35,649 nucleotides of DNA, from NCBI GenBank assembly GCA_944324435.1, contig CALUWH010000021.1, positions 1 to 35,649 of the forward strand, given 5' to 3'. Position numbers and translations under genes: made by a program. Below, in pieces: positions 26,350 through 33,051 of this stretch (the stretch's first letter is position 1; each line of letters begins with the position of its first letter). The stretch is from Candidatus Gastranaerophilales bacterium. GTDB taxonomy: Bacteria; Cyanobacteriota; Vampirovibrionia; Gastranaerophilales; Gastranaerophilaceae. Under the pieces are notes generated by a model that had not been told where the DNA came from, did no database searches, and was given only the letters and a program-made list of their open reading frames with translations.

Positions 26350-28134
26350 TTACCCTCCTATTACCGCTAATGTTTGGCCTGTGACAACTTTATCACCTTG
26401 AGATACAACAATGGATTGAACAACTCCTGATTTTGGTGCTTTTACTTCAATTTCCATTTTCATAGCTTCAAGAACCATAATTACATCGCCTTCGGAAACG
26501 CTATCACCTACAGAAGCTTCTATTCTCAAAACATTTCCGGGTACACCTGCTTTAACGTCTTCCCCAGCTCCTGATGAAGCAGCCTGTTTTTCAATTCCTG
26601 CCTTTACGGAAACATCATAGGACTTACCGTTAACAGTTGCTTTGTCTCCGTCAAGCTTAACCGCATAAGCTTTGCCGTTAACCTTTACTGTAAACTCGTT
26701 GCCTTCTGCAGAACAAGCAGGTACTGCAGGGCAATTTTTACGAACACCGATTTGTCCTTTGCCTTGCAGGAACATTATACCTTTTTCTTTGCAGGCGCCT
26801 GCAATAAAGATATTTTCGTCATTAACTTCTAAGCCTGCATCTTCAAGCATTTTAGTTGCAGCCTTAATTCCCTTATTCGGATCTTTATCATTCAAATCCA
26901 CAACTAATTCAGAAGTCGGTGCCAAACCAAGCTGCTCTTCCGCAATTTTTACAACTTCGCTATCCGGTTCGCAAGGAGTTTTTCCAAAATATCCGAGAAC
27001 CATTTTGCCGTAACCTTCCGCAATTTTCTTCCAAGCGCCAAACATAACATTATTGAATGCCTGCTGGAAGTAAAATTGTGACACGGGAGTAACAGAAGTT
27101 CCGAATCCGCCCTTTTCTACAACTTCTTTCATAGCAGCAACAACCTCAGGGAATTTATCCATCACACCATTATCTCTCATCATCTGGGTGTTTGCAGTTA
27201 ATGCTCCGCCCGGAAGAGGTGAAGATATAATCATCGGATTAACTGCCAAAGCCTCCGGAGGCAAGAAGTAATCTTTCATACATTCCTTAAAAATTTCTTC
27301 CGTTTCAAGAATCTTATTAATATCAATTCCCAAATCATACTCAGTTCCCTTGAGCGCATGCCACATTGAAACAATATCAGGCTGAGCAGTTCCGCCTGAT
27401 ACAGGCTTCATCGCCAAATCTATTCCGTCAGCTCCGCCATCAAGCGCCGCAAGATACGCAGCCAAGCCTGTTCCGGCCGTCTCGTGCGAATGGAATCTTA
27501 TATGAGCATCAGGGCCTAAAATTTCTCTTGTTCTCTTTATTGTTTCATAAACCTTTCTCGGAGCAGAAGTTCCGGAAGCATCTTTAAATGCAATGCTGTC
27601 AAACGGAATCCCTGCATCAAGAATATTTCTCAGCACCCTTTCATAAAAAGGAACATCATGAGCGCCTGTACAGCCTATCGGCAGCTCCATCATTGTTATA
27701 GTAACTTCATGTTTCAAACCGTTATCTTTGATACATTGACCTGAATAAATTAAATTGTGAACATCATTTAAAGCATCAAAATTTCTTATAGTAGTAACAC
27801 CGTGTTTTTTAAACAATTTAGCATGCAGGTTAATCATATCTCGCGGCTGAGAATCCAGCCCTACAACGTTTACACCTCTAGCTAAAGACTGAAGGTTTAT
27901 ATCGGGACCGACAGCAGCTCTAATCTTATCCATAGTTTCAAACGCATTTTCATTACAATAGAAAATCGGAGACTGGAATCTTGCCCCGCCTGCAACTTCA
28001 AAATGCTTAATACCGGCTTCTGTCGCAGACTTCAATGCCGGCAAAAAGTCATCTACAAAAACTCTCGCCCCATATACTGATTGAAATCCGTCCCTGAAAG
28101 ATGTATCCATAACTTTGATAAGTTTTTTTGCCAT
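26350..28134 (-). CDS. oadA: Biotin-dependent carboxyltransferase (OadA / pyruvate carboxylase B type)
   Basis: 594 residues. The carboxyltransferase barrel begins VMDTSFRDGFQSVYGARV; Asp10, Arg14, Asp15 and Gln18 match the DT-R-D-Q core. The lysine in AFKDASG and the HSH in FHSHETAG supply the metal site. A PYC_OADA segment follows to about 450. The C-terminal biotinyl domain carries EAMKMEIE, with the biotinylated lysine near 559. With OadB it would form a Na+-pumping oxaloacetate decarboxylase; a stand-alone pyruvate carboxylase B subunit is the alternative, but no biotin carboxylase gene is nearby. The 'DTSFRDGFQS...FHSHETAG' wording matches the epsilonproteobacterial PycB-like branch rather than classical OadA (DTTLRDAHQS). 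Confidence 0.88.
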   Translation of the reverse strand: MAKKLIKVMDTSFRDGFQSVYGARVFVDDFLPALKSATEAGIKHFEVAGGARFQSPIFYCNENAFETMDKIRAAVGPDINLQSLARGVNVVGLDSQPRDMINLHAKLFKKHGVTTIRNFDALNDVHNLIYSGQCIKDNGLKHEVTITMMELPIGCTGAHDVPFYERVLRNILDAGIPFDSIAFKDASGTSAPRKVYETIKRTREILGPDAHIRFHSHETAGTGLAAYLAALDGGADGIDLAMKPVSGGTAQPDIVSMWHALKGTEYDLGIDINKILETEEIFKECMKDYFLPPEALAVNPMIISSPLPGGALTANTQMMRDNGVMDKFPEVVAAMKEVVEKGGFGTSVTPVSQFYFQQAFNNVMFGAWKKIAEGYGKMVLGYFGKTPCEPDSEVVKIAEEQLGLAPTSELVVDLNDKDPNKGIKAATKMLEDAGLEVNDENIFIAGACKEKGIMFLQGKGQIGVRKNCPAVPACSAEGNEFTVKVNGKAYAVKLDGDKATVNGKSYDVSVKAGIEKQAASSGAGEDVKAGVPGNVLRIEASVGDSVSEGDVIMVLEAMKMEIEVKAPKSGVVQSIVVSQGDKVVTGQTLAVIGG

Positions 28135-28139
28135 CGTCT

Positions 28140-28871
28140 TTATCCTCTCTGATTTATTATATCCCCTACCATAAGGAGATGCTCTTGATTATTCTTGTCA
28201 AGCAGCACTAATGCACCACCCTCAGTAATTTCTTTTGCTATACCGGAAATCTCTTTATCAAACACCCTGACCTTAATTTCCTGATTAAGGAACCTAACTC
28301 TCCTTAAATAATCATTCTTAATTAACGAAAATCCATCCTCAATAAATCTATCATACCGTAAAAAAAACTTTTCCAAAAGCCTTTTTAAAAAGATTTCTTT
28401 ATCAACATACTGCCCGAGTTCAATATTCAAAGCTGTCGCAGGCTGATTAATTTGCGCCAAAACCTCAGATTCTGCATTCAAATTAATTCCAAATCCCAAA
28501 ATTAATCCGCGCAGACAGTTTCTCTCCATAACCCCCTCCGCTAATATCCCGGAAATTTTTTTAGAGCCAACCTGAACATCATTCGGCCATTTTATTGAAG
28601 GCTCTACTCCATACTCCTCCATAAGTTCTGCGATTACAACACATAAATACTGGGTAAGATTTGAATATACATTCCTCATATCATAAGACGGTTTAAGAAC
28701 CAGCGTTGCATAAATATTATCACTGCCTGTAAAGTTCCACTTCCTATCCAATCTTCCGCGCCCGGCTGTCTGATTATACGTATAAACAACGCTTCTATCC
28801 AAAATCTCTTCAATATGTTCTTTTGCGTACTTGTTTGTAGAATCAACCGTCTCTAAATATAATGACTTCAT
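28140..28871 (-). CDS. birA: Biotin--[acetyl-CoA-carboxylase] ligase
   Basis: 243 residues, catalytic and C-terminal domains only; the N-terminal winged helix of the E. coli repressor form is absent, so it does not regulate directly. Signatures: VDSTNKYAKE (about 8-17), QTAGRGRLDRKW (about 35-46, the biotinyl-AMP loop), and KWPNDVQVGSKKISGIL (about 95-111). It attaches biotin to the lysine of the carboxyltransferase encoded 5 nt downstream, a sensible operon of enzyme and substrate. TATAAT ends 6 nt before the ATG with no ribosome site, so the operon message is probably leaderless. Confidence 0.93.
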   Translation of the reverse strand: MKSLYLETVDSTNKYAKEHIEEILDRSVVYTYNQTAGRGRLDRKWNFTGSDNIYATLVLKPSYDMRNVYSNLTQYLCVVIAELMEEYGVEPSIKWPNDVQVGSKKISGILAEGVMERNCLRGLILGFGINLNAESEVLAQINQPATALNIELGQYVDKEIFLKRLLEKFFLRYDRFIEDGFSLIKNDYLRRVRFLNQEIKVRVFDKEISGIAKEITEGGALVLLDKNNQEHLLMVGDIINQRG

Positions 28872-28877
28872 AAGTTA

Positions 28878-28883
28878 ATTATA
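28878..28883 (-). promoter_or_regulatory. -10 box of the birA-oadA-oadB operon, probable leaderless start
   Basis: Perfect TATAAT on the minus strand, then TAACTT, then the birA ATG at 28871. Confidence 0.6.
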
Positions 28884-28942
28884 TAAAAAAATTAATAAAT
28901 AATACTACAATTTTTTTTATATATCAAGTATAATAACGAACC

Positions 28943-28972
28943 TTGACAAATATAATTTTTATCAGTTATAAT
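28943..28972 (+). promoter_or_regulatory. Near-consensus sigma70 promoter of the RiPP-like operon
   Basis: Perfect TTGACA (28943-28948), 18-nt spacer, perfect TATAAT (28967-28972). This is the strongest-looking promoter in the window. The short leader holds AAAGGAGG before a GTG start. Confidence 0.85.
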
Positions 28973-29001
28973 TACTCCAAAGTATCGTAAAGGAGGTTAT
29001 A

Positions 29002-29229
29002 GTGTTACGCGGCGTTACAGGAATTAATCAGACTAAGGTAAGTCATTTTTTACCTAATGCTAAAGCTAAAGCAAATATCGGGAAAAATATGGAACTGCCT
29101 TCTAAAATTGCATTGAGTACCCTTGGAATTTTTGGTGTTGCAGATGGAATAAAAGGGGTAAATGCACCAAAGAATGAACATGTCGACCGTTACTGCGGTT
29201 CAGATTTTGCTTGCTCTTTGCTTTATTAA
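29002..29229 (+). CDS. Candidate RiPP precursor peptide
   Basis: 75 residues, GTG start with an excellent AAAGGAGG site 5 nt upstream. I find no known family. The first 60 residues are Lys/Asn-rich and could be a leader, with a hydrophobic middle LPSKIALSTLGIFGVADG (about 33-50). The last residues, HVDRYCGSDFACSLLY (60-75), hold the only two cysteines plus Tyr, Phe, Asp and His, which looks like a small core peptide. The strong promoter, the first position in the operon, and the radical SAM/SPASM and PqqD-like genes directly behind it support a precursor role. There are no Gly-Gly cleavage site and no transporter or protease nearby. The chemistry (thioether or ring-type carbon cross-link) cannot be read from sequence. 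An ordinary small protein is the alternative. Confidence 0.65.
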   Translation: MLRGVTGINQTKVSHFLPNAKAKANIGKNMELPSKIALSTLGIFGVADGIKGVNAPKNEHVDRYCGSDFACSLLY

Positions 29230-29239
29230 TAAATCAAAT

Positions 29240-30454
29240 ATGATAAACTTAGAGAATCTGTTTGAGCTATACATACATAACAAAAAAACTTTGCAGACAC
29301 AAAAATTGCCGGCAGAAATGTTTTCTTGTTATACCAAATATAAAGAATCGTTACCCAAAGGTTATATTTTTGCCTTTCCAAATTCAATTGTATTAAAAGT
29401 AACAGAAGCGTGTAATTTACGTTGTAAACATTGTTTTTACGCAGAACAACCGGAATTTTATAATAAGCGCTCGGAACTAAATACTACCGAAATAAAAGAG
29501 CTTATTGATTTTTTAGTAGATGAAATTAATATTATTTTTTTAACTTTAACTGGCGGTGAAGTCTTTGTACGAAAAGACTTTCTTGAAATATTAAACTATA
29601 TAAAACAAAAGTATATACCAGTAATTATTCAAACAAACGGTGTACTTATTGATGAAATAAAGGCAAAACAGCTCGGAAAGACTTTAAACCTCAAAACAGA
29701 CTCTGTTCAAATTAGTCTGGAAGGAGCCGATGCGGAATCACACAATAAAATTCGAGGAGACGGAACTTTTGAAAAAGCAATTAATGCAATTCAACTCTTA
29801 CGAAAAAATAATATTAGGGTTCAAATCAATATGACACTAACTACAGTAAGTGCACCTAAAATAGAAAACATTTTTGAACTCTGTCGCAACTTGAATGTTA
29901 ATTGGCTATCAATAGGCCGCCTTGAAATTTGTTCAGACAAACAAAGATATCTGGAATTACCAACAGAAGAATTAATGAATTATAGTAATATCCTTTTAAC
30001 AAAAGCAAAAAAAATCAACGATATAAAGATGGACTATAGAGCCTTGACCCTATTTGACTTTTTGAAGCTACCAGAAGGGAAAATATTATTAGATAATTAT
30101 ATTAATAACAAGGATATACAAATATCACAAAATAAATGCTTAACCTGCCACCACCATGATAAACTAACAATTTCTTCTGAAGGAAACGTATTTTTCTGCT
30201 CTATGGATGAGTCAAAAGACGCAATATTAGGCAACTTGAGAGAACAAAACTTTTATGATATATGGGAAAATCGGTTTAATACCCCATACTTTCAAAAACG
30301 AGATATGTCAACTACAAAATGTAGAAACTGCAAATATATCCCATTGTGTAATACCGGCTGCATGGCAAGCGCCTATAAAAAATACGGCGATATAAATTGT
30401 GCAGCTGCAGAATGCACTTATTTTAACGAATATATGAGGTTAAAAAATGGATAA
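29240..30454 (+). CDS. Radical SAM/SPASM peptide maturase
   Basis: 404 residues from ATG 29240, 10 nt after the candidate precursor stop; earlier in-frame ATGs lie inside that gene. The radical SAM motif is EACNLRCKHCFY (Cys58, Cys62, Cys65), followed by LTLTGGEVFVRKDF (GGE motif binding the SAM amino group) and ISLEGADAESHNKIRG. The C-terminal SPASM domain has CLTC (about 297), a Cys after NVFF, and C-x2-C-x5-C-x3-C (Cys361, 364, 370, 374) with further Cys387 and Cys392, enough for two auxiliary Fe-S clusters. Such enzymes cross-link or epimerise peptides (sactipeptide, ranthipeptide, cyclophane and PqqE-type reactions). It overlaps the PqqD-like gene by 8 nt. It is more AT-rich than the birA operon next door. 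Confidence 0.9.
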   Translation: MINLENLFELYIHNKKTLQTQKLPAEMFSCYTKYKESLPKGYIFAFPNSIVLKVTEACNLRCKHCFYAEQPEFYNKRSELNTTEIKELIDFLVDEINIIFLTLTGGEVFVRKDFLEILNYIKQKYIPVIIQTNGVLIDEIKAKQLGKTLNLKTDSVQISLEGADAESHNKIRGDGTFEKAINAIQLLRKNNIRVQINMTLTTVSAPKIENIFELCRNLNVNWLSIGRLEICSDKQRYLELPTEELMNYSNILLTKAKKINDIKMDYRALTLFDFLKLPEGKILLDNYINNKDIQISQNKCLTCHHHDKLTISSEGNVFFCSMDESKDAILGNLREQNFYDIWENRFNTPYFQKRDMSTTKCRNCKYIPLCNTGCMASAYKKYGDINCAAAECTYFNEYMRLKNG

Positions 30455-30752
30455 AACGGCTGTATTAAAACTGACACCCCATGTTTTAAAACGTATGGAA
30501 TATAATATTGAACGTTTCTACTTATTAAACCTTAATAATGATGAGTTATGGGTCGGGAATTATTCCTCATATCTAGTAATTAATGCTCTAGATGGTTTCA
30601 AAACCATTGAACAAATTGTTAAAGAAATACATAATACCACCCTTTCAGGTTTCAAAACAGAGGCTTTATATAAGGCAGTAGAAGCAATCCTGCAAGAACT
30701 TTTAGACAAACATTTTTTAGTCATTGTAAAAAACGAAACTGCACTTTCATAA
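30447..30752 (+). CDS. PqqD-like RiPP recognition element protein
   Basis: 101 residues, overlapping the radical SAM gene by 8 nt. The pattern 'YLLNLNNDELWVGNYSSYLVINALDGFKTIEQIVKEI' reads (in pieces: LLNLNNDELW at about 26-35; INALDGFKTIEQIVKEI at about 44-60) like PqqD (PF05402): a short beta hairpin, then a winged-helix bundle with the conserved 'L-D-G-x-x-T-I-x-x-I'. In RiPP systems this domain binds the leader of the precursor and delivers it to the radical SAM enzyme. Here it is separate rather than fused. A hairpin just at its stop codon closes the operon. Confidence 0.75.
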   Translation: MDKTAVLKLTPHVLKRMEYNIERFYLLNLNNDELWVGNYSSYLVINALDGFKTIEQIVKEIHNTTLSGFKTEALYKAVEAILQELLDKHFLVIVKNETALS

Positions 30753-30767
30753 GCGCAGTTTCTTTAT
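30735..30767 (+). terminator. Hairpin at the end of the RiPP-like operon
   Basis: GAAACTGC (30735-30742) pairs with GCAGTTTC (30755-30762), followed by TTTAT. The stop codon of the PqqD-like gene lies in the loop. The T tract is short, so termination may be partial. Confidence 0.55.
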
Positions 30768-30796
30768 GTACACATTAGGTTTGCATTTGTTCTTAT

Positions 30797-31486
30797 TTAT
30801 GCCGCGGTGTTTAGTTTTTTGTCCTCCATCGGCTTCATTTCAATTTGTTTAGCCATTTCTGCTTCTTTGGCGTGAATCTTTGCGTTCCACCAGTTTCCGA
30901 TTTTGTTAGCAAATGGAGTTATGGCAACAGGCGTTACATATCTGTAAATGAATGTGAATGTCAGGATACTCATCAAAGCTCTTACAGCCTTTAGATTCTT
31001 ACCGAGCTTCTCCATCGCAACCTTTTTCTGCTCAGGAGTTAATTTCATTTGAGCTATCTTATGTTCGTGCATTGCATCATACTTATATTCTATCTGCTTC
31101 TTGATATCTGCAATATAATGGTCAGTAATATAAGCACCTGCGGTCGGTACAAGGAACCCTAAACCCTGGTTAATAGCAAGAGTTCGAGCATTATCTTTAT
31201 CAAAATCCTTGTTTTTCATTGTAGAAACCATATAAGCAGAACTTGTAATTGCAGATCCTGCAACCTGAAAGTGATTTGTGACATTTTCAACTTCAGATTT
31301 CTTTGAAGCTTTTTCTGCAAACGTTCTTAACCTGTCAGAATTTGCAAGATATTTTCCATAGATTTTTGCAGTAAAGTCAGAAATTTTATCTCCAAACTTT
31401 CCTTCAAAATTTATATTATTATCTGTTCTATTTTGTAAAGTAGTACGGCTGTTTATACCCGGCATATTTACACCCTGAATATTCAT
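30797..31486 (-). CDS. Uncharacterised membrane protein, smaller paralogue of the upstream gene
   Basis: 229 residues. Unknown family. N-terminal disordered-looking stretch with NNINFEGKF (about 23-31), then a helical region, two hydrophobic stretches (about 75-85 and 105-120, including NQGLGFLVPTAGAYI) and a C-terminal membrane segment ALMSILTFTFIYRYVTPVAI (about 166-185). The segment order (VAGSAITSS, DKDNARTLA, LGFLVP) parallels VQSGSALGI, DKNKKDCKYAA, WGFVVP in the gene upstream, so the two are likely paralogues; this copy lacks the repeat region of the other. Its start overlaps the upstream stop by 1 nt (TAATG), with a very strong AAAGGAGGTGG site. Possibly lineage-specific. Confidence 0.65.
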   Translation of the reverse strand: MNIQGVNMPGINSRTTLQNRTDNNINFEGKFGDKISDFTAKIYGKYLANSDRLRTFAEKASKKSEVENVTNHFQVAGSAITSSAYMVSTMKNKDFDKDNARTLAINQGLGFLVPTAGAYITDHYIADIKKQIEYKYDAMHEHKIAQMKLTPEQKKVAMEKLGKNLKAVRALMSILTFTFIYRYVTPVAITPFANKIGNWWNAKIHAKEAEMAKQIEMKPMEDKKLNTAA

Positions 31487-32883
31487 TATGCCACCTCCTT
31501 TCCGGAAGGCACAGAATCCATTTTAATTTCCTTTGCTGCAGCGGGAACTTCCTGTTTTGGCTTCTTAGTTTTTTCTATATGGAATACGTGTTTAAGCAGG
31601 AATGGTAAAATTGCAATTGTAGCTGCAGCTCTTGGGTATGCTGTGATAACCTCCGGCAGCCAGCTTCCGATTTTATCCTGTAATGTATTTGCCCAGCCTG
31701 CCTCAACCATATCTCTTTCTATTGCAGTTCCTAAATCGTGTACGCCGTCTTTTGAATTATTCTGGTAACATACATCCTTTATTTTCACCTTTTTCCCTTT
31801 GACTTCTTCGCGAACCCTGCCTGTAATAAGCGGAATCATATCTTCTGCTTCTGCCATATCAGATATAAAGATAGAATTATTATCAAAGTTAAATGCCTTG
31901 CCATCTTTAGTCAGCCATTTATCAGGATGTAATCTGTCGAGCCCCTTTCCGCCTACAGAGTTTAAATCCAAGTCCGGAAAAGCATCTTTTAAAATATTTT
32001 CTTCTGCATGTTCAAGAGGATAATATTTTACTTTGCCTGATTCTTTATCTTTTAGTGCAATATATATATCTTTTAAATCAATATGAGCTTTCTTTCCGTC
32101 TTTTGTAACAAGATTGTTTGCGCCATTTTTAATTGAACTTGTATCCAAATCATTAAAATACTTTTTCATGGTATCTTCTGATACTTCTGATATGTGTTTG
32201 GGCTGTGCTATTTTTCTAACATTTTTAAAATCAGTAACAAAGACACGTCCTTCTCTGTCTACCCATTCCTTCATATCTTTTATTGTTCCGTCTGCATTTT
32301 TTATAGAAGACATATCCAAATGCGGATTTCTTCTCTTTATCATACTTTCAGAAATATATTTATTAACATACTTGTGCATGTCTTTTATAATTTTATTGTA
32401 TCCTGTTACCGTTGGTTTAATTAATGTAAAAGGCACGACAAAACCCCAAATACCTGATGACATAGAGTGCACTGCCGCATACTTACAGTCTTTTTTATTT
32501 TTATCTCCAGGGAATAGCAGCAATGTCCCCGGTCTAAGTATCAAACAGATACCTAACGCAGAACCTGACTGGACCATTACTTCCTGTTTAGATGTTATCT
32601 CTGTTGCTTTATTAAAAAGGCCGCTATTAATAGATTTCTTGACAACCTTATTATTAGCGACCTTCTCTGCAAATGTTTTTTTACCGGCTTCAACAGCTTT
32701 AGTGACAATTTCCTTCTTCCCCCTAAATGACACACCACTCTCGTACGTATCAGGGACAGAATTGCGCATCTTACGCATTTGCTCCGAATAATTTAATCTA
32801 ATCTCACCGGATTTGTTGGTTGACATGATACTTCTATTTTGGGCCAATGAGTTTAGATTTTGCGTTGTATGAATCTTCATCAT
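31486..32883 (-). CDS. Uncharacterised membrane protein with three internal repeats
   Basis: 465 residues from ATG 32883 (or 32880), behind TTGGAAA. Unknown family. An Asn/Ser-rich N-terminus includes GVSFRGKK (about 50-57). Hydrophobic stretches lie near 107-125 and 140-160, and a C-terminal membrane segment lies near 418-435 (AAATIAILPFLLKHVF). The middle holds three related units starting HLDMSSIKNADGT, DLDTSSIKNGANN and DLDLNSVGGKGLD, the later parts containing W or LVTKDGK-like strings (DREGRVF, TKDGKKAHID, TKDGKAFNFD). They read as about 35-70 residue repeats on the soluble side. The gene is paralogous in its flanking parts to the gene that follows. Function unknown; the pair forms a two-gene operon. 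Confidence 0.7.
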   Translation of the reverse strand: MMKIHTTQNLNSLAQNRSIMSTNKSGEIRLNYSEQMRKMRNSVPDTYESGVSFRGKKEIVTKAVEAGKKTFAEKVANNKVVKKSINSGLFNKATEITSKQEVMVQSGSALGICLILRPGTLLLFPGDKNKKDCKYAAVHSMSSGIWGFVVPFTLIKPTVTGYNKIIKDMHKYVNKYISESMIKRRNPHLDMSSIKNADGTIKDMKEWVDREGRVFVTDFKNVRKIAQPKHISEVSEDTMKKYFNDLDTSSIKNGANNLVTKDGKKAHIDLKDIYIALKDKESGKVKYYPLEHAEENILKDAFPDLDLNSVGGKGLDRLHPDKWLTKDGKAFNFDNNSIFISDMAEAEDMIPLITGRVREEVKGKKVKIKDVCYQNNSKDGVHDLGTAIERDMVEAGWANTLQDKIGSWLPEVITAYPRAAATIAILPFLLKHVFHIEKTKKPKQEVPAAAKEIKMDSVPSGKEVA

Positions 32884-33051
32884 AGTTTCCAATCTTTTAC
32901 TAACTGTCTACACATCTATAGTAAAACAAAGAAAAATATTTTTTGCTAGTTCGTTAAAAATTTGTTACAATTGGGGGGTAAATATATTAAAATGGAAGGC
33001 AGCATTACCAGAACAACGTTTTTTGTACCCGGAATTAAAGAGAGGAAAGAT

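Follow-up and report, generated by a model that had tools for sequence, protein, structure and literature searches.

The window, i.e., the whole 35,649-nucleotide stretch of Candidatus Gastranaerophilales DNA analyzed here (genome G000), codes for a precursor peptide, a radical SAM/SPASM maturase and a PqqD-like protein in a single cassette, and the genomic evidence makes it very likely that this locus serves RiPP maturation and belongs to an unnamed family restricted to its bacterial order. The best explanation of the whole, which we regard as probable, is that the tail of the precursor is presented by the PqqD-like protein and modified by the radical SAM/SPASM enzyme. The family is patchily distributed, has not been named previously and is not a member of any named class. 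It displays the genomic hallmarks of RiPP systems dependent on a RiPP recognition element (RRE), namely a conserved leader, a variable core and a precursor linked to both maturase and RRE.

Organization of the cassette and its insertion site

The cassette lies on the forward strand downstream of a sigma-70-type promoter (TTGACA-18 nt-TATAAT; 28943..28972) that matches the consensus at 12 of 12 positions and is the sole site of such quality recovered by a consensus scan of the region. A Shine-Dalgarno element, AAGGAGG (28990..28996), is situated 5 nt 5′ of the GTG start (29002) of the 75-residue precursor gene (29002..29229). Exactly 10 nt separate this ORF from the ATG-initiated gene for the 404-residue maturase (29240..30454), which in turn overlaps by 8 nt the ATG-initiated gene for the 101-residue PqqD-like protein (30447..30752). 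The cassette ends in a hairpin (30735..30762; no strand assigned) with a folding energy of −15.3 kcal/mol (z −4.7), which covers the stop and last codons of the PqqD-like gene; because the better T-run belongs to the minus strand, this possible terminator may be bidirectional or serve the convergent gene. The promoter, the strong ribosome site, the 75-residue ORF, both gene junctions and the closing hairpin had all been correctly noted in a preliminary description of this DNA, as had the AT-richness of the locus: its GC content is 0.317 as compared to 0.365 for the whole window, and is equally low in only 1.2% of equal-sized windows.

The cassette is carried by a 1.90 kb insert (28860..30759, forward strand), in place of which the nearest relative, the sister species G011 (L149), has 62 bp between flanks showing 99.0% (27462-28859) and 97.0% (30760-32986) identity to the window. 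The site is also empty in G027 (L150), and across the genus many more species have the flanking genes adjoining each other. Its near-identical but empty site makes the sister species a clean comparison for the role of the product. At one edge (28860-28871) the insert extends into the opening codons of the biotin ligase gene; the product of that gene begins with MKSLYLE here and MEIYLE in G011. At the other edge lie two adjacent genes whose products begin with MNIQG and METMM (30797-32892), neither of which has a Pfam match; in many species of the genus a frame of about 520–780 residues matches the pair, as if they were fused.

The preliminary description took the AT-richness as a hint of lateral transfer, an argument from base composition that is not borne out: low GC is common among the family maturases, and in the more distant G163 the same site is occupied by a cassette of the same subclade, with an adjoining partner gene (see below) and with neighbor genes less similar to those of the window. 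With a relative of the cassette occupying this position, an ancient presence followed by repeated losses fits at least as well as transfer, and recombination via the shared flanks is compatible with the site pattern.

The maturase and the PqqD-like protein

Consistent with the RiPP-like radical SAM system of the preliminary description, the window maturase matches the Pfam Radical_SAM (2.5e-26) and SPASM (2.1e-9) domains, and its neighbor the PqqD domain (PF05402; 8e-6, 26.5 bits against a cut-off of 23.4), all above the curated cut-offs, with the latter constituting a discrete RRE. The maturase combines the radical SAM motif CxxxCxxC (C58, C62, C65) with the SPASM pattern C-x(9-15)-G-x4-C ... 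C-x2-C-x5-C-x3-C ... C, comprising seven cysteines (303, 320, 361, 364, 370, 374, 392), and all ten are invariant across the 27 maturases of the family. An eighth cysteine near the SPASM domain, C300, is found in the window's subclade and in G127. In SuiB, which forms a C–C bond, a linker cysteine closes the Aux I site; by analogy, C300 could close an otherwise open Aux I site. Seven SPASM cysteines in AlbA have been linked to such an open Aux I site (PMC6231123).

The best solved relative recovered by the maturase profile is SkfB (8e-32), with CteB (5wgg) and SuiB also being matched. SuiB is the closest Foldseek match of a partial maturase model, which was built with distant viral-contig relatives and has a good barrel and a poor SPASM part, such that the Foldseek ranks are a rough guide only; the single-sequence model of the PqqD-like protein is too poor to confirm its fold. 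The maturase falls below the cut-offs of the named NCBIfam radical SAM families (PqqE, mycofactocin, ScmE/F, StsB, AlbA, WgkB, AhbD and nif11 class 3), with a top score of 152.5 of 500 bits (AhbD), while the PqqD-like protein scores 15.7 of the 46 bits required for the PqqD of PQQ synthesis (TIGR03859). No NCBIfam equivalog model recognizes the maturase, the PqqD-like protein or the precursor.

Distribution and gene order of the family

A profile built from related loci of the genus recovers 27 maturases with E < 1e-105 in 19 of the 383 genomes of the order, and is separated by a wide gap (about 1e-106 in the family to 5e-48) from the next match in these genomes. An independent PqqD profile retrieves exactly the same 19 genomes, which together hold 23 cassettes with a maturase and 25 precursors; four of them, the window's genome included, have two cassettes each. 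Across 386 sampled genomes of the phylum, no match outside the order approaches the family scores (best other match 2e-47), and a genome-contig scan sensitive to close relatives only returned a single 25% match elsewhere. A literature search on RiPPs in Gastranaerophilales/Melainabacteria found nothing relevant. The compact three-gene cassette with an unassigned precursor proposed in the preliminary description is real, but it is not a singleton, and its relatives often possess an additional partner protein.

Most of clade I shows the gene order precursor–maturase–PqqD, while clade II, G239/G350 and G244 show the order precursor–PqqD–maturase. In two clade II loci (G237:C44 and G292:C40), which occur as tandem pairs, the PqqD-like domain is fused to the N-terminus of the maturase, a layout reported for SkfB and CteB (PMC6231123). 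Distances between maturases correlate with those between the PqqD-like proteins (Mantel r 0.88, p 0.0002) and between the precursors (r 0.75, p 0.0002). In two cassettes the PqqD-like gene is followed by an additional radical SAM/SPASM gene (L024:7293-8447 and L025:600-1751), whose product forms its own branch in the tree, whereas G237:C49 has an orphan PqqD-like gene (L091:3887-4171) with no adjoining maturase, perhaps a relic. A different radical SAM gene is found 3′ of a gene for a secreted-looking protein with 3–11 [RK]YAGP repeats (L050:675-1412, also in L011 and L014), which suggests a further radical SAM peptide system, unrelated to the one described here.

The precursor: leader and core

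A small same-strand ORF of 61–112 residues with a cysteine near or at the C-terminus lies directly upstream in 23 of 23 cassettes, as compared to any such ORF within 400 bp of just 4 of the 26 radical SAM genes of other kinds that served as controls. The association holds in the other direction too: in the genus, a homologue of the window precursor is found only beside a related maturase (2 of 65 genomes), with the precursor of the syntenic cassette in another species, G163:C60 (BLASTP 4e-10), being its only match in these 65 genomes. The pairing of maturase and cysteine-tailed small ORF, on which the preliminary description had staked its reading, therefore survives on both counts. Ten precursor pairs at 56–93% identity show dN/dS values of 0.09–0.25, and the window and G163 precursors a value of 0.38, with the higher dS values being near saturation. 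This purifying selection, together with the homology, rules out a chance ORF as the identity of the 75-residue frame.

An 8-residue motif search across the precursors retrieves a leader motif with an information content of 14.28 bits, as against 12.19 bits (sd 0.23, maximum 12.66) in 40 shuffled sets. It takes the form [LI]-P-[KAS], an L-P followed by basic or small residues, about 32–54 residues from the C-terminus in most precursors; a clear copy is missing in several clade II precursors, and the motif is accordingly not universal. In the window it reads MELPSK (29089..29106), with the L-P at residues 32–33, and is the presumed recognition site of the PqqD-like protein.

The tails are hypervariable and track the maturase tree. 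Cysteine accounts for 8.3% of the residues in the final 25 positions of the precursors as compared to 0.5% of the remainder and is the only tail residue kept in 25 of 25; tyrosine is also enriched (6.2% versus 1.3%). The presumed core of the window precursor, HVDRYCGSDFACSLLY (29179..29226), contains the motif C-x2-D-F-x-C (C65, D68, F69, C71). It matches no NCBIfam precursor model, in line with its earlier placement outside the known classes, and the two cysteines in 75 residues do not form the SCIFF pattern of six cysteines in about 45 residues. The preliminary description had suggested asking whether the tail and the gene pair co-vary, and tail type indeed varies together with maturase clade: C-x(1,2)-D-[FYWH] is shared by all of the 8 precursors that belong to the window's subclade (G000, G163, G237, G292) or its sister subclade (G008, G032, G029, G003) and occurs in 0 of 17 elsewhere, while the terminal residue is cysteine in 10 of 10 clade II precursors and in none of the others. 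An Asp/Glu follows a cysteine within 6 residues in 21 of 25 precursors, the exceptions being the tails of G127, G244, G237:C44 and G292:C40. Some clade II tails show repeated X-Y-G, the spliceotide splice-site motif (L021:3629-3856 and L088:5424-5666). The tandem precursors in G030 and a multi-core precursor in G244 (L100:3652-3990) with three near-identical repeats, ADSCGGMMSWSTHTAPVQAK, are typical of RiPPs and count in favor of the RiPP reading.

A partner protein in related cassettes

Clustering of flanking genes uncovered a homologous protein of 277–538 residues, encoded no more than about 3 kb from 13 cassettes. Among the 383 genomes, its profile recovers it with most of its length covered in 13, all of them cassette genomes and always beside a cassette, with the other matches being one 44-residue fragment and one at 3e-4. 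Its distances mirror those of the maturases (Mantel r 0.96, p 0.0002; r 0.80 on representatives), and it is probably part of the same pathway as the cassette in many relatives. The window's cassette lacks the gene, the single copy in this genome being at the second cassette (G000:C15). Each two-cassette genome has one copy, which would fit sharing between cassettes, and the window's genome may use the G000:C15 partner in trans; six cassette genomes have none. The partner protein has no Pfam, NCBIfam or PDB match. Its C-terminal part aligns to GNAT enzymes in the expected register (hhalign P 0.004 against 0.43–0.92 for controls, with a probability of only 8–23%), which at most hints at an acetyltransferase-like protein. 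Being confined to the neighborhood of these cassettes, it presents itself as a new candidate for a tailoring or immunity function. In G239 and G350, a further protein of about 590 residues (L097:2042-3829 and L099:5536-7308) lies between cassette and partner gene, and is a possible additional accessory.

As the preliminary description noted for the window, no transporter or protease stands alongside: none recurs by the cassettes among 70 flanking proteins.

Proposed mechanism and chemistry

We posit that the discrete PqqD-like protein would bind the 75-residue precursor via the leader L-P motif and offer the last ~16 residues of the peptide to the radical SAM/SPASM enzyme, which would then modify this tail; export and leader removal would fall to machinery encoded elsewhere. 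As for the modification itself, our leading guess, to which we give a little under even odds, is a ranthipeptide-like radical thioether in which Cys65 (or Cys71) is joined to a side chain close by, with Asp68 as first choice. This guess stems from SkfB being the best solved relative and CteB also being matched, the seven invariant SPASM cysteines, the Asp/Glu shortly after a cysteine in 21 of 25 precursors and the precedent of PapB, which joins Cys-Xn-Asp with n = 0–6 (PMC9413430), a range that takes in the Cys-Gly-Ser-Asp of the window. Against it, C300 could fill the Aux I site in the window's subclade and G127, and the four tails without a nearby Asp/Glu imply that one Cys-Asp/Glu rule fails to cover the whole family.

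That same C300, a feature of fully ligated enzymes, would suit a C–C or C–O cross-link on the tail aromatics (Phe69, Tyr64, Tyr75) of the SuiB, PqqE or cyclophane type, with the cysteines serving only in structure or cluster binding. We rate this somewhat unlikely: the top Foldseek rank of SuiB for the partial model, the tyrosine enrichment in tails and the aromatic residue (or His) beside the Asp in all eight C-x(1,2)-D-aromatic precursors speak for it, but cysteine is the sole residue common to all tails, and the aromatic varies in both letter and position. Backbone chemistry, such as PlpX-type tyramine excision at X-Y-G or another rearrangement, appears improbable. It would share the three-part logic with a separate PqqD-like partner, X-Y-G occurs in some clade II tails (G000:C15, G345), and some members score weakly to the nif11 class 3 maturase model (TIGR04103); however, the motif is absent from the window tail and every C-x(1,2)-D-aromatic precursor, and one X-Y-G site of G000:C15 is P-D-G in G011 and G027. 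We hold a peptide-derived redox cofactor akin to PQQ or mycofactocin to be a similarly long shot. While the maturase scores to the mycofactocin (3e-37) and PqqE (6e-25) models and no transporter is linked, these scores (128 of 265 and 88 of 381 bits, respectively) are far under the curated cut-offs, the patchy presence (19 of 383 genomes) and hypervariable tails are unlike a cofactor system, and no cofactor-dependent enzyme recurs beside the cassette among the flanking proteins.

A bolder and rather doubtful reading would make the family a new RiPP class of the order: a single maturase family would have evolved through two or more tail grammars (C-x(1,2)-D-aromatic and C-terminal Cys), with unprecedented radical chemistry, and its own partner enzyme, which would represent a new family and perhaps be an acyltransferase, would be able to serve several cassettes per genome.

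Comparison with known systems

RiPP systems that have a separate RRE and the same layout as this cassette are already known (PMC7470986). With 25 precursors, 27 maturases and two tail types, the family forms a natural series in which the adaptation of a SPASM enzyme and its discrete recognition protein to shifting cores can be tested. The PQQ (PqqA–PqqD–PqqE) and mycofactocin (MftA–MftB–MftC) systems share with the cassette a small precursor, a separate RRE and a SPASM enzyme, but their models do not recognize the window proteins; the 16 residues of the window core include no Glu from which a PqqA-type Glu-Tyr link could form, and they lack the terminal Val-Tyr of MftA. Spliceotides (PlpA–PlpX–PlpY) likewise combine precursor, radical SAM enzyme and partner protein, and have a parallel in the X-Y-G of some clade II tails; in contrast, the window tail lacks this motif and there is no Nif11 leader match.

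SynChlorMet (ScmD/ScmE/ScmF) furnishes the second-best NCBIfam match of the maturase and the best of the PqqD-like protein, which is separate there as well. However, the scores reach only 141 of 400 and 18.5 of 100 bits, most cassettes have a single maturase and the precursor has no match. Among the sactipeptide maturases SkfB, AlbA and StsB, SkfB is the nearest solved structure, and the fused family loci share their RRE–radical SAM–SPASM order; yet SkfB has a Twitch domain in place of the full SPASM domain found here, and the StsB and AlbA models yield 103 of 625 and 70 of 850 bits, far under cut-off. Finally, ranthipeptides (freyrasin, PapA/PapB; SCIFF, CteA/CteB) differ in that the window precursor has only two cysteines and no six-Cys pattern and the RRE is mostly a separate protein, but they resemble the family in the radical SAM/SPASM maturase, the RRE and the Cys donor with a nearby Asp/Glu.
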